From contig JAGHCA010000023.1 in assembly GCA_021160725.1 (NCBI GenBank), positions 1-34,956 of the forward strand: a DNA stretch of 34,956 nucleotides, in the 5' to 3' direction. The notes beneath the pieces are model-generated. The model had not been told where the DNA came from and did no database searches. It saw nothing but the letters and a program-made list of their open reading frames with translations. Each line of letters opens with the position of its first letter. The first letter of the stretch is position 1. Position numbers and translations under genes: made by a program. Shown here in pieces: positions 2,818 through 14,694 of this stretch. Origin of the DNA: Dehalococcoidia bacterium. GTDB lineage: Bacteria > Chloroflexota > Dehalococcoidia > GIF9 > AB-539-J10.

Positions 2818-2934
2818 AAACTGCGTAAATAATATATTGTTCGCTCATTGGCTCTGCTGCGATTCGTTGCCGGAACAAAAAGCATCATACCCATCCAGAA
2901 CAGCCTGTTCCTCGAACCATGCCAAGCGGGAAAG

Positions 2935-2963
2935 TTGAACGGGAGCGTTGCATCGAATATACT
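2935..2963 (+). promoter_or_regulatory. Candidate sigma-70 promoter for the cyclase-led operon
   Basis: TTGAAC at 2935-2940 and TATACT at 2958-2963 are separated by exactly 17 bases. The -10 matches the consensus at 5 of 6 positions and the -35 at 4 of 6. Transcription would start near 2970, just before the GGAGGA ribosome-binding site at 2975-2980, giving a very short leader. This supports the internal TTG start of the next gene. Inferred from sequence only. Confidence 0.5.
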
Positions 2964-2985
2964 AGTGGTGCTGCGGAGGAAGAGT

Positions 2986-3633
2986 TTGTCAGAGATTATT
3001 GACATATCAGTGCCCCTTTCACCCGGAATGCCTGTCTGGCCAGGTGACGGTGATTTTCGCATCGTGCCGGTAAAGCGTGTGGCAAAAGGGGATAAGAATA
3101 ATTTGTCCCGGCTGGACTGCGGCATACACTCCGGCACCCATGTGGATGCTCCGTGGCATTTCCTGGAGGAAGGAAGCACTGCAGAGCAGTTACCTCTAGA
3201 TGTGATGGTGGGCGATGCTTTGGTGGCTTATCTGCCAGAAGTTGATGTAATCACGGCTGAGACTCTTGCTCGGTTGACGCTCCCCACAGGCACAACACGC
3301 CTGCTGTTGCGGACACGCAACTCGGAGCTATGGGAAACAGGAGTCACCGAGTTCAGGAAAGACTTTGCAGCACTAACAAGTGATGCCGCTCAATGGCTGG
3401 TGGACCAGGGTATTCGCCTGATAGGCGTGGACTACCTATCGGTACATCGCTACGGCGATAAGGCCCCTACGCATCAAATCTTATTGAGGGCGGGCATCGT
3501 TATCGTTGAAGGGCTGAACCTGGCTGGTGTGGAACCTGGAAAATACGAACTTATCTGTTTGCCGTTGCGTCTGAGTGGTGCCGATGGGGCACCCGCCAGG
3601 GCTGTGCTGAGAAAACTCCCATCACAAGACTAG
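2986..3633 (+). CDS. Cyclase/kynurenine formamidase-like metal-dependent hydrolase
   Basis: The TTG at 2986 is chosen as start because GGAGGA (2975-2980) lies five bases upstream and a good promoter lies just before it. A longer reading from 2848 would add 46 residues that do not look conserved and would begin upstream of that promoter. The resulting 215 aa fits the cyclase family (PF04199). The metal-binding signature HSGTHVDAPWHF is intact, after the typical N-terminal DISVPLSPGMPVWPGD. A second family hallmark, GVDYLSV, follows about 95 residues later. Known members hydrolyse N-formylkynurenine or cyclise/hydrolyse polyketide and amide substrates. No kynurenine genes are nearby, so a role in the adjoining glycan or sugar pathway, such as hydrolysing an amide or lactone, is more likely but unproven. 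It sits 19 bases before the cytidylyltransferase. Confidence 0.8.
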   Translation: MSEIIDISVPLSPGMPVWPGDGDFRIVPVKRVAKGDKNNLSRLDCGIHSGTHVDAPWHFLEEGSTAEQLPLDVMVGDALVAYLPEVDVITAETLARLTLPTGTTRLLLRTRNSELWETGVTEFRKDFAALTSDAAQWLVDQGIRLIGVDYLSVHRYGDKAPTHQILLRAGIVIVEGLNLAGVEPGKYELICLPLRLSGADGAPARAVLRKLPSQD

Positions 3634-3652: not shown

Positions 3653-4354
3653 ATGTCATCTCTATCCTCAAACTCAAAGCCTGTAATCGTCGCCCTGGTT
3701 CCCATGAAGGGACACAGTGAGAGGGTGCCCAATAAGAACCTTCGCCCTTTTTGCGGCAAACCCCTCTGCCACTGGATCATACATAGTCTGCAAAAGAGTC
3801 ATTATGTAAAAGATATTGTGGTGAATACCGACAGCCAGAAAATAGCGGAGAACATTCACCAGAATTTTAACGGTGTGAAGATTATTGACCGCCCAGATAA
3901 AATCAGGGGTGATTTTGTCTCAATGAACACCATCATCGCTCACGACCTGTCACAATTGCCTGGGGAACACTTCCTGCAGACACACAGCACCAACCCCTTG
4001 CTAAACACTGAGACCATAGACAAAGCTATAGCCTTGTACTTCCGCAATCTGGGAACGCATGATTCGCTGTTCACGGTAACACGCCATAATGCCCGCTTCT
4101 ACTGGGGTGATGGGAATCCAATAAACCACGACCCGCAGGAATTGATTAGAACTCAGGACTTGCCCCCCATCTTTGAGGAAAACTCTAGCCTCTATATATT
4201 CTCCAGAGAATCGTTTAAGCAGAGCGGCGGCAAGCGTATTGGACTGAAACCATATATGTTTGAAATAAGCAAGTTTGAAGCCGTGGATATTGACGAGGAA
4301 GATGATTTCCAGCTGGCGGAATTGTTATGCCAGGCAAAGCTAAACAAATTGTGA
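3653..4354 (+). CDS. Acylneuraminate/nonulosonate cytidylyltransferase-like (CMP-sugar synthetase)
   Basis: Activates a 2-keto sugar acid with CTP to give CMP-sugar. The 233-aa length fits NeuA/PseF/KdsB relatives. The nucleotide-binding signature is at residues 17-38 (PMKGHSERVPNKNL, then GKPL). An LQTHSTNPLL segment (108-117) corresponds to the substrate loop, RTQDLPPIFEEN near 166-177 is typical of acylneuraminate types, and DIDEEDDFQLAE near 212-223 is the conserved C-terminal metal-site motif. A GAGG about a dozen bases upstream is the only visible Shine-Dalgarno. It is followed by an aldolase, a dehydrogenase, a HAD phosphatase and an epimerase. No NeuB-type condensing enzyme is present in the window, so the activated sugar may not be a classical sialic acid. 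Confidence 0.85.
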   Translation: MSSLSSNSKPVIVALVPMKGHSERVPNKNLRPFCGKPLCHWIIHSLQKSHYVKDIVVNTDSQKIAENIHQNFNGVKIIDRPDKIRGDFVSMNTIIAHDLSQLPGEHFLQTHSTNPLLNTETIDKAIALYFRNLGTHDSLFTVTRHNARFYWGDGNPINHDPQELIRTQDLPPIFEENSSLYIFSRESFKQSGGKRIGLKPYMFEISKFEAVDIDEEDDFQLAELLCQAKLNKL

Positions 4355-4415
4355 AGAAAAGTGCTATGATTGGGCGGAGGAGGAGGTTATCAGGAAAACT
4401 GAACTAATAAGAAGA

Positions 4416-5198
4416 ATGAATAAGACTAACAGCCTGAAATCAAAACTAAGAAATAGACAGCTAACTATAGGGTCGTGGCTAACCCTTAGCCATTCTTCTA
4501 TTGCTGAAATAATGGCTAATGCTGGGTTTGACTGGTTAACAGTGGATATGGAACACAGCGCTATCGCCATCCACGAGGCACAGCGGTTAATTCAGGTGAT
4601 TGAACTCAGCGGCTGTGTTCCGCTGGTACGGGTAGGGACTAACGACGCCAATCTGATTAAGAGAGTTATGGATGCCGGCGCCCATGGAGTAATTGTGCCT
4701 ATGATTAATACCAAGGAGGACGCCGAACAGGCGGTGGGCGCAGTCAAGTATCCACCTGAAGGATTCCGTGGAGTCGGGCTGGCTCGCGCTCAGTCTTATG
4801 GCGCTAACTTTGAGGGGTATCGAAAGTGGAATGAAACTGAGAGCATCGTTATCGTCCAGATAGAGCATATTAAGGCAGTGGAGAACCTGGAGGCGATTTT
4901 GTCTGTTAAAGGAGTGGATGCCTTTATCGTTGGGCCCTATGATATTTCGGCATCCCTCGGCATAGCAGGGCAATTTGACCATCCCGAGATGACATCAGCC
5001 TTGAATAAGATACTGGACACCGCCAGGCGGCTAGAGGCGGTTGCTGGCTATCATGTTGTCCCTCCTGATGCTAGACAGGTGCTGGAAAAAATAAAACAAG
5101 GTTACCGCTTTCTGGCATATAGCATTGACTTTCTATTCCTGGGCGACTCCTGTCGCAACGGTCTTACCACTATTCGCGAGAATATGGGAAAAGCATGA
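4416..5198 (+). CDS. HpcH/HpaI-family class II aldolase (2-keto acid aldolase)
   Basis: The 260-aa TIM-barrel protein has the family signatures in order: GSWLTLSHSSIAEIM, FDWLTVDMEHS with the catalytic-site His, PLVRVGTND, GVIVPMINTKEDAE, YPPEGFRGVG, the metal-ligand region VQIEH, and FIVGPYDISASLG. Known members cleave or form 2-keto-3-deoxy acids such as 4-hydroxy-2-oxoheptanedioate or 2-keto-3-deoxy-L-rhamnonate, using pyruvate and an aldehyde with Mg/Mn. Beside a CMP-sugar synthetase it could make the keto-acid skeleton by pyruvate condensation, in place of NeuB or KdsA. That role is inference. No in-frame alternative start exists between the previous gene and the ATG at 4416. The end overlaps the next gene by ATGA. 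Confidence 0.88.
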   Translation: MNKTNSLKSKLRNRQLTIGSWLTLSHSSIAEIMANAGFDWLTVDMEHSAIAIHEAQRLIQVIELSGCVPLVRVGTNDANLIKRVMDAGAHGVIVPMINTKEDAEQAVGAVKYPPEGFRGVGLARAQSYGANFEGYRKWNETESIVIVQIEHIKAVENLEAILSVKGVDAFIVGPYDISASLGIAGQFDHPEMTSALNKILDTARRLEAVAGYHVVPPDARQVLEKIKQGYRFLAYSIDFLFLGDSCRNGLTTIRENMGKA

Positions 5199-6130
5199 AC
5201 AGGGTACTAATTACCACTTCCTCTTTTGGAAAAAACAACTCCTCACCACTCAATCTACTCAAAGAAGCAGGCTACGAGACAATAATTAACCCTTATGGAA
5301 GAAAATTAACCGAAGATGAGGTGCTTAACTTGCTTCTCGAAGTTAAACCGGTGGGAATGATTGCTGGAGTGGAGCCCTTAACTGCTAGCGTTCTTCAACA
5401 AGCGAAAGGCTTAAAGGTTGTTTCTCGCTGTGGGGTCGGACTGGACAACGTGGATTTAAATGCTGCCCGAGCTCTGGGTATCACTATTAGAAATACACCG
5501 GATGCCCCCACTGAGTCTGTAGCCGAGCTGACTATCGGGTTTATCTTTAACCTGCTAAGAAAAATTGCTTTTCTAGATAGAGAAGTCAGGAAGGGCAACT
5601 GGGCTAAGGAGAGCGGAAGCCTGGTGCGAGGTAAGAACGTCGGCATCGTTGGCTTAGGGCGCATCGGCAAAAGGGTTGCCGAAATGTTGCTGGCACTGGG
5701 GGCGAAGGTGGCCGGAACAGATATACAACCGGATTACGAGTGGCTGCAAACAAAACAGGTCCCTTTAATCAGTTTAGAGGAGTTGCTGAAACAAAGCGAA
5801 ATTTTGTGCCTGCATGTTTCATCCACAGGGAATATTAAGCAACTCATCGGCAGGAAAGAAATGGAATCTATGCCAAAAGGGGCTTATCTAATAAATACTT
5901 CTCGGGGCGAGGTTGTTGATCACGATGCCCTGTACTCTATGCTATCCGGCGGACATTTGTCCGGTGCAGCGCTGGACGTTTTCCACCACGAGCCATATAC
6001 CGGACCGCTGACCCATCTCGACAATGTTATCCTCACGCCTCACATCGGCTCATATGCTAGAGAAGCACGCATGGAGATGGAGATTCAGGCAGCAGAGAAC
6101 TTAATTGAAGAGTTGAGGAAGCAAGTATGA
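5195..6130 (+). CDS. D-2-hydroxyacid dehydrogenase (phosphoglycerate dehydrogenase-like)
   Basis: NAD-dependent oxidoreductase of the D-isomer 2-hydroxyacid family, 311 aa and without the C-terminal ACT domain of biosynthetic SerA. Visible motifs are SRCGVGLDNVD, the dinucleotide fold VGIVGLGRIGKRVAE near residue 150, the Arg-bearing NTSRGEVVD, the catalytic Glu in HHEPY, and the His in TPHIGSY. The start overlaps the aldolase stop by four bases (ATGA), implying translational coupling. Serine synthesis is possible, but the setting within a sugar cassette suggests oxidation or reduction of a 2-hydroxyacid intermediate, for instance the aldolase product. Confidence 0.87.
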   Translation: MNRVLITTSSFGKNNSSPLNLLKEAGYETIINPYGRKLTEDEVLNLLLEVKPVGMIAGVEPLTASVLQQAKGLKVVSRCGVGLDNVDLNAARALGITIRNTPDAPTESVAELTIGFIFNLLRKIAFLDREVRKGNWAKESGSLVRGKNVGIVGLGRIGKRVAEMLLALGAKVAGTDIQPDYEWLQTKQVPLISLEELLKQSEILCLHVSSTGNIKQLIGRKEMESMPKGAYLINTSRGEVVDHDALYSMLSGGHLSGAALDVFHHEPYTGPLTHLDNVILTPHIGSYAREARMEMEIQAAENLIEELRKQV

Positions 6131-6786
6131 TCAGGGCAGTTATTTTTGACGTTGACGGCGTTATAATCGAGTCCGCTGAAATTAAGACCAAGGCTTTTGA
6201 GATACTCTTTTCTGATTACCCTGACAAGCTGCCAGAAATTGTCAGCTACCACCAAAAACATGCTGGCATTTCTCGTTACGTTAAATTCAGATACTTTTAT
6301 GAAAAAATACTGAGGAAAAAGCTTTCACAGCAAGAGGAAGCTGAGTTAGGGGAAAGATTCTCTAAAATTGTCTTGACACAAGTACTTGAAGCCCCGTTAG
6401 TACCGGGAGCTATTGAATTTCTCACCCAAAACAAGAACCGCTACAGTTTGTTTGTGGCTTCCGGCACACCTGAAGATGAACTCCAGAATATTCTAACCCG
6501 CCGCCAGTTAAGTCAGTTTTTTCTGGAGGCACACGGGAGCCCAAAAAGCAAAGCCGCTATCATAGATGATATCTTAGATAGATACAAGTTTCAGGGGAAA
6601 GAGGTTGTCTTCATCGGTGATGCGGAGAGTGATAGGGCTGCGGCTGAAAAAGCGGGAACACTATTCATTGCCCGTATCACTCGGGAGAATCCCCAATTGA
6701 AGGACTGCCGATGGCAGGTCAGTGACTTGATTGGTCTGGATGTCCTTTTACAAAATATGTGCGACAAGGAGAGTGATAACCAATGA
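6127..6786 (+). CDS. HAD-superfamily phosphatase/phosphomutase
   Basis: The 219-aa protein has HAD motif I at FDVDGVIIES (Asp8 nucleophile, Asp10 general acid), motif II at VASGTP (Ser112), a Lys in SPKSKAAI near 140, and motif IV FIGDAESD near 162-169. A helical cap lies between motifs I and II, as in beta-phosphoglucomutase and phosphoglycolate phosphatase. It probably removes phosphate from a sugar-acid phosphate before CMP activation, the job done by KdsC or NeuC-pathway phosphatases; this is inferred from position. Overlaps both neighbours by ATGA. Confidence 0.85.
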   Translation: MIRAVIFDVDGVIIESAEIKTKAFEILFSDYPDKLPEIVSYHQKHAGISRYVKFRYFYEKILRKKLSQQEEAELGERFSKIVLTQVLEAPLVPGAIEFLTQNKNRYSLFVASGTPEDELQNILTRRQLSQFFLEAHGSPKSKAAIIDDILDRYKFQGKEVVFIGDAESDRAAAEKAGTLFIARITRENPQLKDCRWQVSDLIGLDVLLQNMCDKESDNQ

Positions 6787-7667
6787 AAGCTATAGTCTTT
6801 GGTGGCTCAGGTTTTATAGGAAGCCACGTAGCAGACCGCTTGACTGAAGGAGGCTATGATGTAACTATATTTGACTTAAAGCCTTCCCCGTATCTTTTAC
6901 CCGCTCAAAAGATTATTAGAGGCAACATCCTGGATAAGGAGGCTGTCTTCGACGCCGTCAAAGGACACGACTATATATATAATTTTGCTGGCCTGGCTGA
7001 TTTGGATACCTCCGCTACAGAACCATTAAAGACAATAGAGCAGAATATAATGGGGACAGCTATACTCCTCGAAGGAGCGTTAAGGAACGAGGCTAAGCGA
7101 TTTATTCAAGCCAGTACAATCTATGTTTATAGTGAGACGGGTGGTTTCTATCGCTGCAGTAAACAGGCAGCTGAACTCTACGTTGAAGAGTACAACCGGA
7201 GATTCGGGCTGGAGTTTACAATTCTCCGTTATGGTACAGTTTACGGACCTCGCGCCGATAGCAGAAATAGTATCTACCGATACCTAAAACAGGCTCTTAC
7301 AGAGGGGAAGATTGATTGCGGCGGTAGTGGTGATGAGACAAGGGAATATATTCATGTCAGAGATGCAGCTCAGTTGAGCGTAGATATCCTTGCCGACAAA
7401 TACCGTAACAAGCAAGTTATTATTACCGGCCATCATCCTATGCGTTTGAAGGACATGCTGTATACAATCAGAGAGATTTTAAGCAATCAGATAGAGATAA
7501 ACTTTGAGGCAAGCAAGAGTGATACTCCTCACTACAATATCACTCCCTACTCCTTCGTTCCCAGGATTGGTCGTAAGCTGGTGACGCACGAATACGTAGA
7601 TATGGGGCAAGGGCTGCTGGAGTGTATCAGCGAGATTTATGGCCAAGACATGAATCGTGAACAGTAA
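6783..7667 (+). CDS. NAD-dependent epimerase/dehydratase (extended SDR)
   Basis: The extended short-chain dehydrogenase of 294 aa has an N-terminal Rossmann motif GGSGFIGSHVADRL (residues 8-21). The active-site Tyr-x3-Lys is in YRCSKQAAE, and LRYGTVYGPR is the downstream conserved block. REYIHVRDAAQ, the usual SDR sugar-epimerase segment, is present. Members act on nucleotide sugars by epimerisation, dehydration or reduction. This is the last gene of the overlapping five-gene cassette; a 189-base gap follows before licD. The exact reaction cannot be read from sequence. Confidence 0.85.
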   Translation: MKAIVFGGSGFIGSHVADRLTEGGYDVTIFDLKPSPYLLPAQKIIRGNILDKEAVFDAVKGHDYIYNFAGLADLDTSATEPLKTIEQNIMGTAILLEGALRNEAKRFIQASTIYVYSETGGFYRCSKQAAELYVEEYNRRFGLEFTILRYGTVYGPRADSRNSIYRYLKQALTEGKIDCGGSGDETREYIHVRDAAQLSVDILADKYRNKQVIITGHHPMRLKDMLYTIREILSNQIEINFEASKSDTPHYNITPYSFVPRIGRKLVTHEYVDMGQGLLECISEIYGQDMNREQ

Positions 7668-7856
7668 AGGAGAGAATTCCTACGGAGAAACACGTCTCTG
7701 GCAAACTTGCCAAAGCAGTCCGAAGAAGTCTAGAGGCAACATACGCAAGCAGTTGGAGCAATACTCAGGCACATATTTCTGGCCGGTACGCAATGACTCC
7801 GATATTCAGCCACGGCACATCATAACAACCGCTGCGGCTCCGATGGGAGACAATAC
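7668..7856. other. Intergenic spacer between epimerase and licD; no supported gene
   Basis: This 189-base stretch has short open frames on the + strand but none with a convincing start, Shine-Dalgarno or recognisable domain. One frame (about 7682 to 7825) reads a basic peptide ending in a stop and might be a gene remnant. GGGAG near 7843 is the likely ribosome-binding site for licD. No clear terminator or promoter was seen. Confidence 0.5.
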
Positions 7857-8660
7857 ATGTCACAGGGCAGAACACAGATAGATAACTCACTGGAACCAAT
7901 TCAAGCCGCTGGACCTTTCAGCGAGCGGGATATTTATCTACTGAGAGAGGTCGTGAGGATCCTTGACGAGCTGGGCATCACCTTTTGGCTGGACCAGGGT
8001 GCGCTGCTCGGTATTTTTCGGGACGGCAGGTTTATACCCTGGGATGCCGATATTGACCTGAGTGTCTGGGATGAAGATGTTCGCAAGGTAGAGCCGCTTC
8101 TGCGTAAGCGACTCTCGTCCCTGGAAAAAGCCAGGGTTGATTCATTCTTCTACGTGTTCAGAGTATACTCAGCCCCTCCCCACCAACACCTCCCCGTGTC
8201 TATTCACCGACACTTTCGTCGTGGACGAGAGGCAGTCAAGCAGATGAAGAGAGCCCCTGATGCCAGGTCCTTCCGCGGGCTTGCTTATCGTGTGGTCCTG
8301 CTGCTGGGAAGATTGATGGTTATTAGGCCAGGGGAAAGGGCTCTGGGCTACGGCGTGCAGATAGATGCATCACGCCCAGGGGGATTGGTTTCTCGTATAA
8401 CCGGGATTGTGGGGAGAGTCCTCCTCTGGTTCAGGGACAGCATCGGAATTCGTCTTGGCGAGTACCTGCAGGTCACCTGTGAAATGAGCGTGGACGCCGG
8501 ATATTTTGAGCGCCTGCGCCCTGTGATTCTGGGAGACCTGCGTCTGGCAGCCCCGGCGGATACTGAGGCTTATCTCGAATTGAAGTATGGCAAAGATTGG
8601 CGGACGCCCAGGCAGGAGTGGAAATACTGGGAGGAAGACGGCGCCGTGACGCAGGGCTAA
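7857..8660 (+). CDS. LicD-family phosphotransferase (nucleotidyltransferase-like)
   Basis: LicD proteins move phosphocholine or similar groups from a CDP/CMP donor onto glycans such as teichoic acid or LPS. In this 267-aa protein the family core is at residues about 30-75: LDELGITFWLDQGALLG, then the metal-binding PWDADIDLSVWD. The C-terminal hallmark DTEAYLELKYGKDWRTP is also present. The middle is enriched in Arg and hydrophobics (RGLAYRVVLLLGRLMV) and may contact the membrane. The start ATG follows GGGAG. It lies directly before a Fom1-like phosphonate operon on the same strand, so the inferred donor is a CMP-phosphonate; no choline-activation genes are visible. Confidence 0.82.
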   Translation: MSQGRTQIDNSLEPIQAAGPFSERDIYLLREVVRILDELGITFWLDQGALLGIFRDGRFIPWDADIDLSVWDEDVRKVEPLLRKRLSSLEKARVDSFFYVFRVYSAPPHQHLPVSIHRHFRRGREAVKQMKRAPDARSFRGLAYRVVLLLGRLMVIRPGERALGYGVQIDASRPGGLVSRITGIVGRVLLWFRDSIGIRLGEYLQVTCEMSVDAGYFERLRPVILGDLRLAAPADTEAYLELKYGKDWRTPRQEWKYWEEDGAVTQG

Positions 8661-8689
8661 GCTCGAATGGCTTTGACTGCGCGGTATAG

Positions 8690-8718
8690 TTGCCAGGTGA
8701 ACACTTTTTATGTATCCT
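8690..8718 (+). promoter_or_regulatory. Candidate promoter of the phosphonate operon
   Basis: TTGCCA (8690-8695, 5 of 6 consensus) and TATCCT (8713-8718, 4 of 6) are spaced by 17 bases in the 98-base gap after licD. AGGAG at 8745-8749 sits nine bases before the ATG at 8759. The phosphonate genes may therefore be transcribed separately from licD, or licD reads through. Sequence match only. Confidence 0.35.
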
Positions 8719-8758
8719 TATATAAATTGCTCACGACAAGCTATAGGAGATTCCTCAG

Positions 8759-10060
8759 ATGAAAACCGTTTATGTCGGCCTGAGCGCCGATCTGATTCAT
8801 CCTGGCCATCTGAATATCATTAATGAGGCTCGAAAACACGGCAGGGTCATAGTCGGGCTACTTACCGACCGGGCTATTGCCAGCTACAAGCGGCTGCCTT
8901 TTCTTTCTTACGAACAGCGAAAGGTCGTCGTGGAGAATATCAAAGGGGTGGCAGAAGTTATTCCCCAGGAGACACTTGATTACGTACCCAATCTAAGAAA
9001 GATAAAACCGGATGTCGTTGTTCACGGTGACGACTGGAGAACCGGGGTTCAGAAAGAAACCAGGGAACGGGTTATTCAAACCCTTCGTGAATGGGGGGGA
9101 CAACTGATAGAGCCGAAATATACCGAGGGAATATCATCCACCCTCCTGCATGCCGAGCTAAAGAAAATCGGCACCACGCCTGAAGCCAGGCTTGCCAGGC
9201 TGAGAAGACTGCTGGAGGTAAAAGACCTGGTCCGCATAATCGAAGCCCACAATGGACTAACCGCGTTGATTATTGAGAACACTACGGTAACAACCGATAC
9301 TGCAACCAAGGAATTTGATGGTATCTGGCTGAGCAGCCTGACAGACTCAGCAGCCAAAGGAAGGCCTGACACCGGCTTCGTTGACTTGACCTCGCGACTG
9401 AATACACTTAGCGACATACTGGAGGTGACTACAAAACCTGTAATTTACGACGGCGATTCGGGCGGATTTACGGAACACTTCAAGCTGATGGTGAGAACAC
9501 TGGAGAGGGAAGGCATTTCCGCAGTAATAATCGAAGACAAAATAGGGCTGAAAGAGAGTTCGCTCATTGAGGATGAGGAGGTCGCACAAATGCAAGATAG
9601 CGTCGAGAATTTCTGTGCCAAGATACATGCGGGTAAAAGCGCTCAACTAACTGATGACTTCATGATTATCGCCAGAATTGAAAGCCTGATACTGAAACGA
9701 GGAATAGAAGACGCCATAAATAGAGCAAAGGCTTACATTGATGCTGGCGCCGATGCCATCATGATTCATAGCAAGAAAAAGACCCCCGACGAGGTTTTTG
9801 CATTCTGTAAGGAATACAGGCGATTTGACCGCAAGGTACCACTGGTTGCTGTACCTACTACCTACTGCCAGGTAACCGAGTCAGAGCTGATACAAGCCGG
9901 CGTAAGAATCGTGATATATGCCAACCAGTTGCTTAGAGCCGCCTATCCCGCTATGGTAAGAGCAGCGCGATCCATCCTGGAGAATGAGCGGGCATTTGAA
10001 TGTGACGAAATGTGCCTGCCCATCCCCGAGATACTATCATTAATAAAAGGCAAACGATAA
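8759..10060 (+). CDS. aepX: Bifunctional cytidylyltransferase - phosphoenolpyruvate mutase (Fom1-like)
   Basis: PEP mutase isomerises PEP to phosphonopyruvate, the entry step to C-P compounds. Residues 1-130 are a cytidylyltransferase: HPGH at 14-17 and the EGISSTLL block at 123-130. Residues about 160-425 are the PEP mutase barrel: [15 protein letters not shown] (187-201), DGDSGG (231-236, metal-site Asp), the gating-loop motif [10 protein letters not shown] (259-268) and IARIES (304-309). The usual hallmark is EDK-x5-NS; here the Asn is Ser267. The same domain order occurs in Fom1 of fosfomycin synthesis, whose N-terminal domain cytidylylates 2-hydroxyethylphosphonate, and in PntC-AepX fusions that make CMP-aminoethylphosphonate. 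The downstream dehydrogenase favours the hydroxyethyl version here. Next gene starts two bases after the stop. Confidence 0.9.
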
Positions 10061-10062
10061 AC

Positions 10063-11160
10063 ATGAAACCAGGGATATTTGTTACTACCCTGGAAGATGC
10101 CGGTTTTTCGCCGTTCATGGGGATTCCTTGCTCCGTACTCAAACCCCTTTTAGACTATATTGCGGACAGCAATAGCCCCACACGTAACTACCTTTGTTCC
10201 TCTGAGGGCGACGCGATGGGATTAGCAGCGGGATTTTCGCTTTCCGGGCGCCTGCCCGTCGTTTACATGCAAAACGACGGCTATGGCAATGCCGTTAATC
10301 CACTCTCTTCATTGTACCTGTTGTATAAATTACCCGTCTTGCTCCTGATCTCATGGAGGGGCGAGCCCGGAGTGAAAGACGCCCCGCAGCACGCTGTAAT
10401 GGGGAAGACAATATTACCCCTGCTGGATACCTTTGAAATACCCCATATTGTTCTTGATAATGACGAGGGGAATCTGAAAGACAGCGTTGCCAAGGCGAAA
10501 AATCACTGCACGACTGAGTCAAAACCCTTCGCATTCGTCATAAGAAAGGGATATTTTGACCGCCACAGTACCAGCATATCTCAATCGAATACTTCACTCA
10601 ACAGGCGACTGGATTACATACGACTGCTTTCAGCAAAGCTGCAGCCCAATGATGTCCTCCTGGGCACAACAGGTTTCTCAGGCAGGGAGATGTACCAGAC
10701 CGTCACTCACAAGGGAAAGTTTTATATGATGGGCTCGATGGGATGTCTGGCATCTCTTGGTTTGGCAATTGCGCTGGAGCAACCGGAAAAGAGGGTTATT
10801 TTGCTGGATGGAGATGGCGCCATCCTGATGAAGATGGGAGCTCTAGCAACGGTGGGATACCACCGCCCTGGAAACCTGATTCACATATGTTTCGACAATC
10901 GCTCATACGAGTCAACGGGGGAGCAACCCACTTTATCCACCGCCGTTAATCTCCTCGACGTAGCTGAAGCCTGCGGCTACCCAACTGTGAATAACGTCAA
11001 GACGATCGGCGAGTTTGAAGCGATTATGAATAACGAGGCAAAATATCCAAAGCCGCTTTTCATTCATATTGAGATAAGTCCCGGCACAGAAGAGGAACTG
11101 ACGAGACCACCAACCTCTCCTGAGGAAATGAGAGACTGCCTCAGAGCGTTCCTGCAATGA
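10063..11160 (+). CDS. aepY: Phosphonopyruvate decarboxylase
   Basis: ThDP-dependent enzyme converting phosphonopyruvate to phosphonoacetaldehyde and CO2, the irreversible step that pulls PEP mutase forward. The ATG at 10063 is chosen: it follows the previous stop by two bases and gives the family N-terminus (EDAGFSPFMGIPCSVLKPL), whereas a frame from 10012 would overlap the upstream gene. Glu48 in CSSEGDAMGLA is the ThDP-activating Glu, QNDGYGNAVNPL (70-81) is typical, and the ThDP-binding GDGAILMKMGAL with a downstream CFDNRSYESTG lies near 249-285. Length of 365 aa fits the family. It ends in ATGA shared with the dehydrogenase. Confidence 0.92.
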   Translation: MKPGIFVTTLEDAGFSPFMGIPCSVLKPLLDYIADSNSPTRNYLCSSEGDAMGLAAGFSLSGRLPVVYMQNDGYGNAVNPLSSLYLLYKLPVLLLISWRGEPGVKDAPQHAVMGKTILPLLDTFEIPHIVLDNDEGNLKDSVAKAKNHCTTESKPFAFVIRKGYFDRHSTSISQSNTSLNRRLDYIRLLSAKLQPNDVLLGTTGFSGREMYQTVTHKGKFYMMGSMGCLASLGLAIALEQPEKRVILLDGDGAILMKMGALATVGYHRPGNLIHICFDNRSYESTGEQPTLSTAVNLLDVAEACGYPTVNNVKTIGEFEAIMNNEAKYPKPLFIHIEISPGTEEELTRPPTSPEEMRDCLRAFLQ

Positions 11161-12260
11161 AATGGCAATACCGTAACCCTGTGCATATTGTTTTTACCCA
11201 AGCCTTCCACAAGGCTTTGGCGGAGCTTATCGGCAATAAGAAAAACGTCCTGGTCATGTGCTCAGAACGTTTTCGCCTTAGCCGCGACTTCGCCCGACTA
11301 AAGGACAGTCTGGCTGATTTCCAGTGTTTCACCAATATCGAGAGAAACCCATCTTTTGAGAGCCACCAGAAGGCAATAGACTTTGCTACAAGCGCTGCGC
11401 CGGAGGTGATTGTTGCTATTGGGGGAGGCTCAGTCATTGATACAGCCAAAGTTACTCGGATGGCATTATTCAGTTCCTGCCGCAACGTTCAAGACTTGTT
11501 TGATTCTCAAAAAAAACCAACAAAAAAGACTCCACTCATCGCCATTCCCACGACTCACGGCTCCGGCAGTGAACTTACCATGTGGGCAACTATATGGGAC
11601 AAGGTCAAAAAGACAAAACACTCCGTACAAAATCCACTGAATTACCCCGACCATGCCATATATGATGTCAATTTAGTCACCTCTCTGCCGATTACAACCT
11701 CCATATCATCTACCTTTGATGCGTTGTCTCACGCCTGGGAAGCATTATGGAACAAGAACGCCAATCCTGTATCAAGCCATTTTGCCACTGAAGCCATCCG
11801 GCGAATAGCCGCGGCTCTAGATAAACTCGTGGTACCGATATCATCGGAAACGAGAGAGAATCTTCTCATGGCATCTATGTATGCAGGACTTGCTTTCTCT
11901 AATACCAAAACCGCCGCAGCGCATTCCATAAGCTATCCCTTAACAGCCTATTTCAATATACCGCACGGAATTGCCTGTTCAATGCCACTGCACTCGCTGG
12001 CAAAGATAAACTTCCGCCAGATGCAAAACGAATTGCCAGGTATATTTTCGCGAATTCAACTTGGCAGTTTCGAGGAACTCTGGGAACGAATGCTGAAGAC
12101 GACGAGAGGGAAAGTCCCATTTTCTCTCCGTGAGTATGGCATTAGTAATGAAGATCTGGAGATGTTGGCGGATCTAGGGTTTTCCAAGGGTAGAATGGAA
12201 AATAATATCGCTGTCCTCAGCCGCCAGGACGTGCTCAACATACTGAAGGACGTTTTTTGA
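11157..12260 (+). CDS. Iron-containing alcohol dehydrogenase; likely phosphonoacetaldehyde reductase
   Basis: The 367-aa type III alcohol dehydrogenase has the NAD(P)-binding AIGGGSVIDTAK near residues 86-97 and PTTHGSGSELT near 134-144. The metal site is formed by the Asp in TFDALSHAWEA plus three His in AAAHSISYPL and IPHGIACSMPLH. PhpC and FomC, relatives in phosphonate clusters, reduce phosphonoacetaldehyde to 2-hydroxyethylphosphonate. The ATGA overlap with the decarboxylase strongly suggests it uses that product. No aminotransferase for aminoethylphosphonate and no phosphonoacetaldehyde hydrolase are visible, which supports a hydroxyethylphosphonate end point. Its stop faces the STT3 gene; 55 bases separate them with no clear terminator. 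Confidence 0.85.
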   Translation: MKWQYRNPVHIVFTQAFHKALAELIGNKKNVLVMCSERFRLSRDFARLKDSLADFQCFTNIERNPSFESHQKAIDFATSAAPEVIVAIGGGSVIDTAKVTRMALFSSCRNVQDLFDSQKKPTKKTPLIAIPTTHGSGSELTMWATIWDKVKKTKHSVQNPLNYPDHAIYDVNLVTSLPITTSISSTFDALSHAWEALWNKNANPVSSHFATEAIRRIAAALDKLVVPISSETRENLLMASMYAGLAFSNTKTAAAHSISYPLTAYFNIPHGIACSMPLHSLAKINFRQMQNELPGIFSRIQLGSFEELWERMLKTTRGKVPFSLREYGISNEDLEMLADLGFSKGRMENNIAVLSRQDVLNILKDVF

Positions 12261-12315: not shown

Positions 12316-14694
12316 TCAGGACTCACCGAAGTCAAGATACTTAAAAATCTTTACAGCAGGCATAGTCATGTTTCCCATCCCTACTGTGGCGTCAGATTCA
12401 TGAACCAGTTCATAGCTGTTCAGCTCCTCAAGAGGCACGGGGCTATCAAAGGGGTTGGGACTTACTATTCGGTAGTTATCAGTCGCCTGTTCTGCTATAT
12501 ACGACTCGGCTTCCTCGTAAGTAGAAAAAAACTGGACATCGATGATTTTATTATATCTCTGTCCGTCTCTGGTTAGCTTCTCTTCGTATGCTATGACAAT
12601 CGTTTGCTGGGGAACCACCGCCTCGCCGTCAAAGTTATAGAGCCTGACCACAATGGATTGGTAATAAGTGGGATAGTATAGAATTATCGGCATCAGGCTA
12701 CCATCCTGCATCTGCTGGTAGTAAACTCCACGAAAGTCATCTACGCTGCTGCCAGCCCATTCCGCCATAGCATAGAATTTTGTAGTCGGCATCGTGTGGT
12801 CAATCACCACATATTTCGAACCAAACTTGTCCGCAAGTTCGTTGGCTGAGCTTTCGTTCTGGGCAGTGAAGAACTGGCCAGCTCTGGCAGCTCCGGCCTG
12901 CATTGGATTGGAATTGGGTATGCGGTGGGCAATTTGCATTATAAAGTAGCCATAGTCCCACCAAGACATCACCCCATAGGCAGTCTCGGGATATACAAGA
13001 TCAGACTTCGGCGGATATATCTCATAATAGAAATCAGGGTCATCGAAAGGTTCGGGGCTGTTATCCCTGAGCCACAGAAGCGAGCTATACCACCCTTGTT
13101 CCAACGATTGGCCCATAAGAAACGGGCTGCTGGCAAATGATGTCGCACTACCAATATTTGGGAAAAAGACTAGGAAAAAGATGGCTATTCCAACGACAAT
13201 AACCCTCACCCAGACACCCCGGGGCTGCATGAATGTTCCTGGCTTTGCTTTCTCCCTGGCTTTTTTCCGCTTCTTGAATTCTTTAACTGTTTCTACTACT
13301 TTCTTAGGCTTAGCCAGCAGTTTTCGTAAGCCAGCAACGTCCAACATCTTCCAGGAGAAATACCCTGTGAGCAAGGCAGCATTTACGGCATAGTAGTAAC
13401 CGAAACGGCGCTGCCCCAGGATTGCTATCAACATTATTATGCTCCATACCAGGAATAAGGTTTTGTCGGCACTTTCTTCTTTCACAACAACATAGATAAG
13501 CATAGCCAGGGAAATAAATGAGATGAAAAAGGAGGTGGTGAAGTTATTCCAGGCCATCTGCAGGGTGAATTCACCCGTGGGGGCAAGAAGAGGCTGCACC
13601 TCCATAATAGTCAGCCTGGCACCGCCCGGGACGAAGATATTGAATTGGCGGAGCATATACTCAAGTAGAGAGGGATTGATGGCATGCAAAACGGCTAACC
13701 CTATCCCAGCCAATCCCAGCAAGGCTACGGGATAGTAAACAGGCTTCCAAGCCCTGCTCGCCATGAGCCGTGAGATAACGCTCAGGACTATGGGTACCGC
13801 TATGGCAACTAGCAGAGATACACGATACGTGATTTCTCGGCTGCTTCCACCCAATATGGGTAGAAGCATGAGGAAGGCAACAAGAAAAAGAGGAGCGCCG
13901 ATAATACATAGATAGTCAGTTGATTTGTGCCTCAAGTGGTCCACGATGAATTGAATCACCAGGTAAACAAATACAATGAAAATGAACAGCAGCCCACCTA
14001 CCCAGGTAAGCAGATACATACCCAGGAAGACGCCAGCCAGCAGGGCATAAACGAGAGGCCTGGTGATAGTTGGCCAGTCTCTGCGTGAAATATGGCCGAA
14101 GGAAATCTCTCTTTCTCGAGCCCGTTTAATAGCCATTATTAGAAATAGTATGCACACGGTAGTGAACAAAGTCTCAACTACATGATGGTCAGTAAAGCCG
14201 AGCAGGGAACGATGTAGAAACTCGCCAGGCAAGATTACAACCAGGGCAGCTGCTATTACACCCGCCCAGCGGTTGAACAGTTCCTTGCCGATAAAATATA
14301 CTGGGATGAGCGTCAGAGTACCCAGAATAGCAGGCATATAAGCGCCCACCGCTTCTATGGTATGCAGAGTTGGTGGCCCCAGGCTAACAAGCCGAACAAT
14401 ACCAGCGACGAGCCAGGCGAAGAATGGGCGGGTAAGTCCAGTCCCACCATCGGGATAGAGCACATAGGGGTCGAAGGAATTAAAGTGAGGAAAGTTATGA
14501 ACTATATTCTCTATATGACGCACGTAGTAATAAGCATCAGTCTCCCGAAACCAGATCAAACCATCAGCGAAAACATGGTCGTAAGGCAGGTATATGCGTA
14601 TATATAGCGAGATACCACAGAGGACTGCCAGGATTATGCCCACTATAGCTGCTGGGGGAAGCCTTCGTTTCTGCCCTGACTTTTGCTCGCTCAC
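12316..14694 (-). CDS. STT3/AglB/PglB-type oligosaccharyltransferase
   Basis: Transfers a lipid-linked oligosaccharide to Asn in N-X-S/T sequons on the outer face of the membrane. The protein is 792 aa, with a GTG start, a first membrane helix at about 15-33 and roughly a dozen more up to about 515, then a C-terminal globular domain. Catalytic features are the acidic RETDAYYYVRHIE near 50-62, TDHHVVE near 166-172, TIMEVQP near 360 (a TIxE motif), WWDYGY near 577-582 that reads the sequon, and DHTMPTTKF, a DK/MI-type motif, near 640. The DHHxxE and DxxM forms look closer to archaeal AglB than to Campylobacter PglB. No other glycosylation gene is adjacent, although the surface-glycan island lies just upstream on the other strand. 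Confidence 0.9.
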   Translation of the reverse strand: MSEQKSGQKRRLPPAAIVGIILAVLCGISLYIRIYLPYDHVFADGLIWFRETDAYYYVRHIENIVHNFPHFNSFDPYVLYPDGGTGLTRPFFAWLVAGIVRLVSLGPPTLHTIEAVGAYMPAILGTLTLIPVYFIGKELFNRWAGVIAAALVVILPGEFLHRSLLGFTDHHVVETLFTTVCILFLIMAIKRAREREISFGHISRRDWPTITRPLVYALLAGVFLGMYLLTWVGGLLFIFIVFVYLVIQFIVDHLRHKSTDYLCIIGAPLFLVAFLMLLPILGGSSREITYRVSLLVAIAVPIVLSVISRLMASRAWKPVYYPVALLGLAGIGLAVLHAINPSLLEYMLRQFNIFVPGGARLTIMEVQPLLAPTGEFTLQMAWNNFTTSFFISFISLAMLIYVVVKEESADKTLFLVWSIIMLIAILGQRRFGYYYAVNAALLTGYFSWKMLDVAGLRKLLAKPKKVVETVKEFKKRKKAREKAKPGTFMQPRGVWVRVIVVGIAIFFLVFFPNIGSATSFASSPFLMGQSLEQGWYSSLLWLRDNSPEPFDDPDFYYEIYPPKSDLVYPETAYGVMSWWDYGYFIMQIAHRIPNSNPMQAGAARAGQFFTAQNESSANELADKFGSKYVVIDHTMPTTKFYAMAEWAGSSVDDFRGVYYQQMQDGSLMPIILYYPTYYQSIVVRLYNFDGEAVVPQQTIVIAYEEKLTRDGQRYNKIIDVQFFSTYEEAESYIAEQATDNYRIVSPNPFDSPVPLEELNSYELVHESDATVGMGNMTMPAVKIFKYLDFGES

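Follow-up and report, generated by a model that had tools for sequence, protein, structure and literature searches.

How might a bacterium build and activate a 2-keto sugar acid without a phosphoenolpyruvate (PEP)-dependent synthase? This question is raised by a five-gene cassette at positions 3653–7667 of a 34,956-nucleotide stretch of DNA (hereafter, the window) from a Dehalococcoidia bacterium. To our knowledge, the ulosonates of known glycans that are activated with cytidine monophosphate (CMP) are built from PEP by KdsA- or NeuB-type synthases. No KdsA or NeuB is encoded within the window cassette, and a metal aldolase of the HpcH/HpaI family lies next to a cytidylyltransferase. We therefore propose, as the probable reading, that the cassette encodes a PEP-independent, aldolase-based CMP-2-ulosonate pathway for a surface glycan. 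The window spans the full length of C41, one of the 104 contigs of its genome (G000; 1.45 Mb, 95.9% complete), and the cassette comprises the following features:

3653–4354, forward strand: cytidylyltransferase, NeuA/PseF-like, proposed CMP-ulosonate synthetase (PF02348, 89.5 bits against a cut-off of 22.6)
4416–5198, forward strand: HpcH/HpaI-fold class II (metal) aldolase of the cassette clade, signature RGVGLARAQ (PF03328, 139.2 bits against a cut-off of 25)
5195–5198, forward strand: ATGA overlap of the aldolase and dehydrogenase genes (junction letters)
5195–6130, forward strand: D-2-hydroxyacid dehydrogenase (PF02826, 179 bits; PF00389, 86.5 bits)
6127–6130, forward strand: ATGA overlap of the dehydrogenase and HAD genes (junction letters)
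6127–6786, forward strand: phosphatase of the HAD superfamily (PF00702, 70.6 bits)
6783–6786, forward strand: ATGA overlap of the HAD and SDR genes (junction letters)
6783–7667, forward strand: short-chain dehydrogenase/reductase (SDR) with the NAD-epimerase/dehydratase fold (PF01370, 148.9 bits)

An earlier note, made from the letters of this DNA, had described these five genes in a row, with the last four joined by ATGA overlaps, and both statements hold. All five open reading frames lie at the coordinates given there, their Pfam matches exceed the gathering cut-offs, and ATGA is read at 5195, 6127 and 6783, giving three four-base overlaps; 61 bases separate the cytidylyltransferase gene from the aldolase gene downstream. 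The expected metal and catalytic residues are found in all five proteins, which look active by this measure: R24, K28, D212 and D214 (DID motif) are invariant across ten cytidylyltransferase sequences, H47, R72, D86, E150 and D176 (the last two being metal ligands) in nine cassette aldolases, R237, E266 and H283 in eleven dehydrogenases, and D8, D10, S112, K142, D165 and D169 of the HAD protein and S111, Y123 and K127 of the SDR in five sequences each. The roles of these positions are presumed from their families. None of the five proteins reaches a curated equivalog cut-off, so none can be assigned to a known substrate by homology; the HAD protein passes just a broad superfamily NCBIfam model. 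The catalytic Ser and Tyr of the SDR have a spacing of 12, which falls short of that in the nearest UDP-sugar epimerase by about 14; the structure model of the SDR (mean predicted local distance difference test score, pLDDT, of 66; nearest folds, UDP-sugar epimerases) added little.

The cassette recurs in other genomes. One scan of species genomes returned 74 aldolase loci, seven at 55–89% identity and 67 at 31–40%. A profile made from an alignment of the seven close aldolases, the window protein and one plasmid copy was then searched with strict E-values, and it matched 2 of 301 genomes of the phylum Chloroflexota (the window's own included), 13 of 291 in the class to which a Desulfobacteraceae relative belongs and 7 of 398 in the phylum of an Acidiferrobacteraceae relative. 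The distribution is patchy, since two genomes of the same genus and two of the same family lack the cassette aldolase. Besides the window, 26 loci from Chloroflexota, Desulfobacterota and Pseudomonadota were read (L003, L004–L010, L091 and L116–L132), all found through the aldolase and related to one another; L003 is the one neighbourhood read among 754 plasmid records that match the aldolase, and L004, from a Chloroflexota bacterium, is the nearest relative. The earlier note had suggested a genome-neighbourhood search for the same genes, and the core does recur: a cytidylyltransferase lies within 8 kb of the aldolase in 24 of the 26 loci, and a dehydrogenase likewise in 24, the gaps being L122 (a 3.1-kb contig, both genes), L132 (cytidylyltransferase) and L124 (dehydrogenase; short contig). 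Because the set recurs in distant taxa, a chance grouping of genes is excluded. Around the 67 weaker homologues, a dehydrogenase occurs in three loci and a classical SDR in four, while the PF04199 hydrolase, cassette SDR, Gfo/Idh, SIS, AroB-like, HAD and cytidylyltransferase proteins occur in none at 60 bits or above. From comparative sequence evidence, the cassette is a real, mobile and repeatedly exchanged gene set, and it is not described in the accessible parts of the open-licence literature searched (including PMC7610986 and PMC8560999).

The nature of the product is suggested by the cytidylyltransferase. PF02348 membership and the nucleotide and metal motifs are present in the window protein, which scores under the curated cut-offs of PseF (93.2 against 205.7 bits) and KdsB (21.3 against 155.2 bits). 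Among the other loci, 9 have a NeuA-like enzyme and 15 a KdsB-like one, an exchange that takes about four switches when placed on the aldolase tree; supported branches force no fewer than two of them. The cassette KdsB of L007 exceeds the KdsB cut-offs (163.1 bits against 155.2). Fourteen cassette-adjacent KdsB proteins look dedicated, since they form their own branch (98/98) apart from 13 other KdsB proteins of the same genomes, on a tree where the cassette label needs two changes, owing to a second L129 KdsB that bears this label but lies outside the clade. Of the 15 KdsB-type genomes, ten were examined, and seven of these have a KdsB at a distance from the cassette. NeuA and KdsB enzyme types both activate 2-keto-3-deoxy acids, and the simplest substrate that the two could share is thus a 2-ulosonic acid, with a CMP-2-ulosonate as the likely product. 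The earlier note had thought a nonulosonate-like or deoxy keto acid plausible; a keto acid, as a likely ulosonate, is supported, and a nonulosonate in preference to other ulosonates gained no support. In L004, the cytidylyltransferase (7188–7883) is 52% identical to that of the window, compared with 82–95% for the other cassette genes and the phosphonate genes described below, which probably reflects a gene replacement inside the operon.

Alternatively, the cytidylyltransferase could activate a small non-sugar 2-keto or 2-hydroxy acid while the aldolase acts in cleavage. That no cassette enzyme attains the curated equivalog cut-off of a family with known substrate is compatible with this, as are the catabolic functions of HpcH/HpaI enzymes with assigned roles in the accessible part of PMC7610986; however, an enzyme above the KdsB cut-offs occupies the same slot in L007, and cassette genes lie beside glycosyltransferases and flippase-like proteins, which renders a small acid quite improbable.

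Formation of the ulosonate skeleton is, on balance, attributed to the aldolase. The cassette aldolases form a single branch against 17 other homologues (support 95/89; the tree took in 17 of the 67 control loci), and the closest solved relative of the window protein is YfaU (153.6 bits), although after RGVG the cassette enzyme lacks two residues relative to YfaU and HpaI. The earlier note had reckoned with an aldolase specific for catabolic substrates, which was not what emerged: the clade sits in glycan loci, and the window protein falls far below the catabolic equivalog cut-offs of HpaI (195 against 369 bits), GarL (180 against 407) and RhmA (161 against 441). According to the accessible part of PMC7610986, in vitro additions of pyruvate or hydroxypyruvate to hydroxyaldehydes are catalysed by HpcH/HpaI aldolases, hydroxypyruvate being tolerated by 19 of 571 class II aldolases screened.

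These scores also bear on whether an ordinary nonulosonate or 3-deoxy-D-manno-octulosonate (Kdo) locus, or a catabolic aldolase cluster, has been misread. The PseF/NeuA-like character of the cytidylyltransferase would fit such a locus, and a pathway of the pseudaminate type is apparently encoded in the genome: the 4.8-kb contig C71 (L087, 1–4771) bears a PseG/PseH locus with a PseI fragment cut by the contig end, and with a PIG-L-like deacetylase, a formyltransferase-like protein, a PseG–PseH fusion, an SDR and a cytidylyltransferase 27% identical to that of the window. Nevertheless, the cassette contains no NeuB, PseI or KdsA, the PseI fragment being on this other contig, and KdsA was not found in the genome, whose sole DAHP_synth_1 match is a 3-deoxy-D-arabino-heptulosonate 7-phosphate (DAHP) synthase (499 against 335 bits) that scores 125 against 314 bits for KDO8P_synth. 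Together with the distance of the aldolase from the catabolic cut-offs, this leaves the ordinary locus very improbable. The earlier note had also pointed to a NeuB or KdsA gene elsewhere, clustered with a second cassette copy; a PseI/NeuB fragment does exist on C71 beside its own cytidylyltransferase, but no second aldolase, dehydrogenase or HAD protein is present there. PseI and PseG are thus encoded at a locus of their own, and a DAHP synthase and a true SerA (on C13, 640 bits) are present in the genome besides, so that the cassette belongs to none of these three pathways.

Around the core, two accessory modules alternate, as judged with reference sequences taken from the window and the loci themselves. 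Module A (HAD and epimerase-fold SDR) is found in 13 of the 26 loci, and module B in 10, where a Gfo/Idh/MocA dehydrogenase is accompanied by a GmhA-like isomerase of the SIS type, an AroB-like enzyme or an inositol-monophosphatase (IMPase) family enzyme; the SIS isomerase is matched in nine of the ten Gfo/Idh-type loci. The modules never occur together (no-overlap probability 5e-5, ignoring the kinship of the loci), and L009, L122 and L124 show neither in full. L009, in which no HAD was seen and the SDR continues into a run of undetermined letters (N), and L124, in which no SDR was seen, are both labelled module A on the aldolase tree, where module labels change about six times, few supported branches forcing these changes. 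L091, a related locus from a genome of the same taxonomic order, has module B where the window has module A; its AroB-like protein passes TIGR04425 (439.6 against 400 bits). A phosphate-removing enzyme is usual, namely HAD in 14 of the 26 loci, IMPase in 3 and AroB-like phospholyase in 6.

In the proposed pathway, the accessory enzymes (HAD and SDR in the window, SIS isomerase and Gfo/Idh in other genomes) would supply an aldehyde, probably an aldose phosphate, to which the metal aldolase would add a 2-keto acid donor, pyruvate or hydroxypyruvate, in place of KdsA or NeuB with PEP. The donor might be provided by the dehydrogenase from a 2-hydroxy acid, most likely by conversion of glycerate to hydroxypyruvate; the HAD protein would then strip the phosphate in the manner of KdsC, the cytidylyltransferase would form the CMP-sugar, and a transferase, PF01973/DUF115-like in several loci, would attach the sugar. 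The order advanced in the earlier note, in which a keto acid is made by the aldolase, dephosphorylated and activated with CMP, is well supported by the recurring genes and the NeuA- or KdsB-like slot. We infer every reaction from what was observed, that is, gene content, conservation, active-site residues and the NeuA/KdsB exchange.

The dehydrogenase is the least understood part of the cassette. In the window, L004, L005 and the small viral contig L161, its gene is adjacent to that of the aldolase or overlaps it, which suggests that the dehydrogenase feeds the aldolase, although we hold this link only tentatively. If the donor were a special one, for instance hydroxypyruvate, the need for a dehydrogenase would be explained, and the most specific form of the proposal, in which hydroxypyruvate made by the dehydrogenase is joined to a sugar aldehyde by the metal-dependent HpcH/HpaI aldolase to give a non-deoxy 3-hydroxy 2-ulosonic acid that is then CMP-activated, is speculative and rather unlikely. 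The dehydrogenase does not pass the SerA equivalog (223.8 bits against a cut-off of 454), and it reads GMIAGVEPLT in the segment where SerA has arginine residues that we take to bind substrate. A serine-making phosphoglycerate dehydrogenase (PGDH) was ruled out, given this segment and the true SerA on C13; the same two points weaken a route from 3-phosphoglycerate through phosphohydroxypyruvate to hydroxypyruvate by the dehydrogenase and the HAD protein. The structure model (pLDDT 85; nearest fold 1wwk, a PGDH) added little. The viral contig itself (IMG/VR, 4.4 kb) has a 2-hydroxyacid dehydrogenase gene overlapping a cassette-like aldolase gene at 1000–2687, with endonuclease-like reading frames beside them; a phage role for the cassette was rejected, this being the single aldolase match in IMG/VR.

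The dehydrogenase might instead make the ulosonic acid itself, by C2 oxidation of an aldonic acid, with the aldolase only supplying or trimming the precursor. Three Rhodobacterales plasmids (L078–L080) and a Pararhizobium locus (L081) carry a related cytidylyltransferase (41–49%), a dehydrogenase and a glycosyltransferase but no cassette aldolase, suggesting that the dehydrogenase suffices to produce a keto acid fit for activation; an SMP-30/gluconolactonase and an SDR lie within 8 kb in L078 and L080, and the dehydrogenase family also includes 2-ketogluconate reductases (9m0t among the structural matches). However, in the aldolase-bearing loci, which were found via the aldolase, this enzyme and the dehydrogenase are equally constant, and the Rhodobacterales dehydrogenases are distant, from plasmids whose chromosomes were not searched. 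Oxidation of an aldonate thus appears improbable.

Several observations weigh against the aldolase-based CMP-2-ulosonate pathway. Four alphaproteobacterial plasmid loci, the same L078–L081, pair a cytidylyltransferase and a dehydrogenase (29–34% identical to that of the cassette) without the aldolase, which is therefore not always needed; in searches of the plasmids, three gave no aldolase match at E ≤ 1e-20 and the fourth distant ones only. If pyruvate is the donor, no dehydrogenase has to be set aside for it, and hydroxypyruvate reductases normally work in the reducing direction. In six loci, the AroB-like phospholyase would be expected to yield a carbocycle, a poor fit to the scheme. No NCBIfam cut-off is passed by the window cytidylyltransferase, in which T167 is aligned to the NeuA arginine that presumably binds the keto-acid carboxylate, and Arg is not clearly kept; since the alignment does not bear it out, this arginine was dropped as an argument that the substrate is proven to be a keto acid. 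In the aldehyde pocket of the cassette aldolase, His213 replaces Leu, as it does in some non-cassette homologues, and with the same His in control homologues it was dropped as a mark of hydroxypyruvate aldolases.

For the surface glycan, evidence comes from putative transferases near the cassette. PF01973/DUF115-like matches occur in 6 of the 26 loci, the gene lying directly between those for the cytidylyltransferase and the aldolase in L005, L006 and L116 (Pfam test on L005), and in L091 a DUF115-like protein without a Pfam match has this position. Maf enzymes, which we take to be PF01973 members, transfer nonulosonic acids. In the accessible part of PMC11339370, a Maf enzyme transfers N-acetylneuraminic acid and Kdo. 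Upstream in L004 is a 1726-residue protein with a weak PF01973-type domain (22.9 bits, below cut-off), and the window contig begins inside the corresponding region. In L123, L124 and L125, the aldolase is followed by a P-loop, HprK-like protein of about 360 residues with no Pfam family (L125 copy tested), and a putative transferase of about 590 residues is nearby.

The cassette also has neighbours on both sides in the window:

2848–3633, forward strand: PF04199 'cyclase'/arylformamidase-like metal hydrolase, probable sixth member (Pfam; near the cassette-clade aldolase in 10 of the 26 other loci)
7857–8660, forward strand: LicD-family transferase, neighbour, not core (Pfam; kept in L004 only of the 26 loci)
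8759–10060, forward strand: PEP mutase with an N-terminal cytidylyltransferase-like domain (Fom1 architecture), neighbour, not core (Pfam/NCBIfam)
10057–11160, forward strand: phosphonopyruvate decarboxylase, neighbour, not core (Pfam/NCBIfam)
11157–12260, forward strand: iron alcohol dehydrogenase, PsrA-like below cut-off (264 against 424), probable phosphonoacetaldehyde reductase, neighbour, not core (Pfam/NCBIfam)

The PF04199 gene ends 19 bases upstream of the cytidylyltransferase gene, its true start being uncertain (TTG at 2848 is the first possible start only). The unit is thus probably larger than 3653–7667, with this hydrolase as a frequent extra member; of the extent given in the earlier note, the five genes stand and the span does not, as the hydrolase gene and the adjacent phosphonate operon were missed. 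The LicD gene and the three-gene phosphonate set begin 189 bases downstream of the SDR gene, and the region 7857–12260, conserved in L004 at 83–95%, is likely a hydroxyethylphosphonate surface-decoration operon, as predicted from its domains. Facing it on the reverse strand, 12316–14694 encodes an AglB/STT3-type oligosaccharyltransferase (PF02516, 109 bits; PF22627, 88 bits), a possible end point of the glycan. Promoter and terminator scans of the window gave chance-level results, and no Rfam family or tRNA was found in it.

With cassette and phosphonate genes adjacent in both the window and L004, and cytidylyl activation of phosphonates established (accessible part of PMC6697681), the cassette might be part of this operon, its cytidylyltransferase activating the phosphonate and its other genes tailoring it. 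This is largely refuted and extremely improbable: a PEP mutase, and with it the phosphonate operon, lies near the aldolase in just 1 of the 26 other loci; the PEP mutase has its own fused PF01467 domain, as Fom1 has for hydroxyethylphosphonate in the same source; and the cassette enzyme belongs to PF02348, its PF12804 match (24.5 bits) being below the cut-off of 27.

If the aldolase-based pathway is correct, this widespread gene set would solve the ulosonate skeleton step in a second way, with a metal aldolase; it would point to acidic surface sugars that are perhaps on no structure list, and many genomes hold orphan proteins of the HpcH/HpaI, 'PGDH-like', TIGR04425 and PF04199 kinds that would gain a testable role. 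The cassette would also offer a dedicated aldolase/cytidylyltransferase pair for sugar acid synthesis. Were hydroxypyruvate the donor, hydroxypyruvate aldolase chemistry would gain a physiological role, and sugars like Ko (D-glycero-D-talo-octulosonate) could arise without hydroxylating Kdo.

Compared with known systems, the proposed route resembles the Kdo pathway (KdsD–KdsA–KdsC–KdsB) in its aldol-type chain extension, phosphatase and CMP activation, in the KdsB-like enzyme of 15 of the 26 loci and in the SIS isomerase of most Gfo/Idh-type loci (9/10). However, it has an HpcH/HpaI metal aldolase where the Kdo route has PEP-dependent KdsA, and it adds a 2-hydroxyacid dehydrogenase, an SDR or Gfo/Idh protein and often the PF04199 hydrolase. 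The L091 module-B gene is a member of TIGR04425, the AroB-related putative sugar phosphate phospholyases, of which the window has none; the NCBI function label is putative, and the family is unnamed in the open-licence literature searched. The NeuB/PseI/LegI routes share the NeuA/PseF-like cytidylyltransferase (window and 9 of 26 loci) and PF01973/DUF115-like proteins (6 of 26), whereas the cassette lacks a NeuB-type synthase and the dehydratase/aminotransferase set acting on UDP-N-acetylglucosamine. With HpaI, GarL and RhmA/YfaU, the cassette aldolase shares its fold and its metal and catalytic residues, but it forms its own branch, in a glycan rather than a catabolic context.

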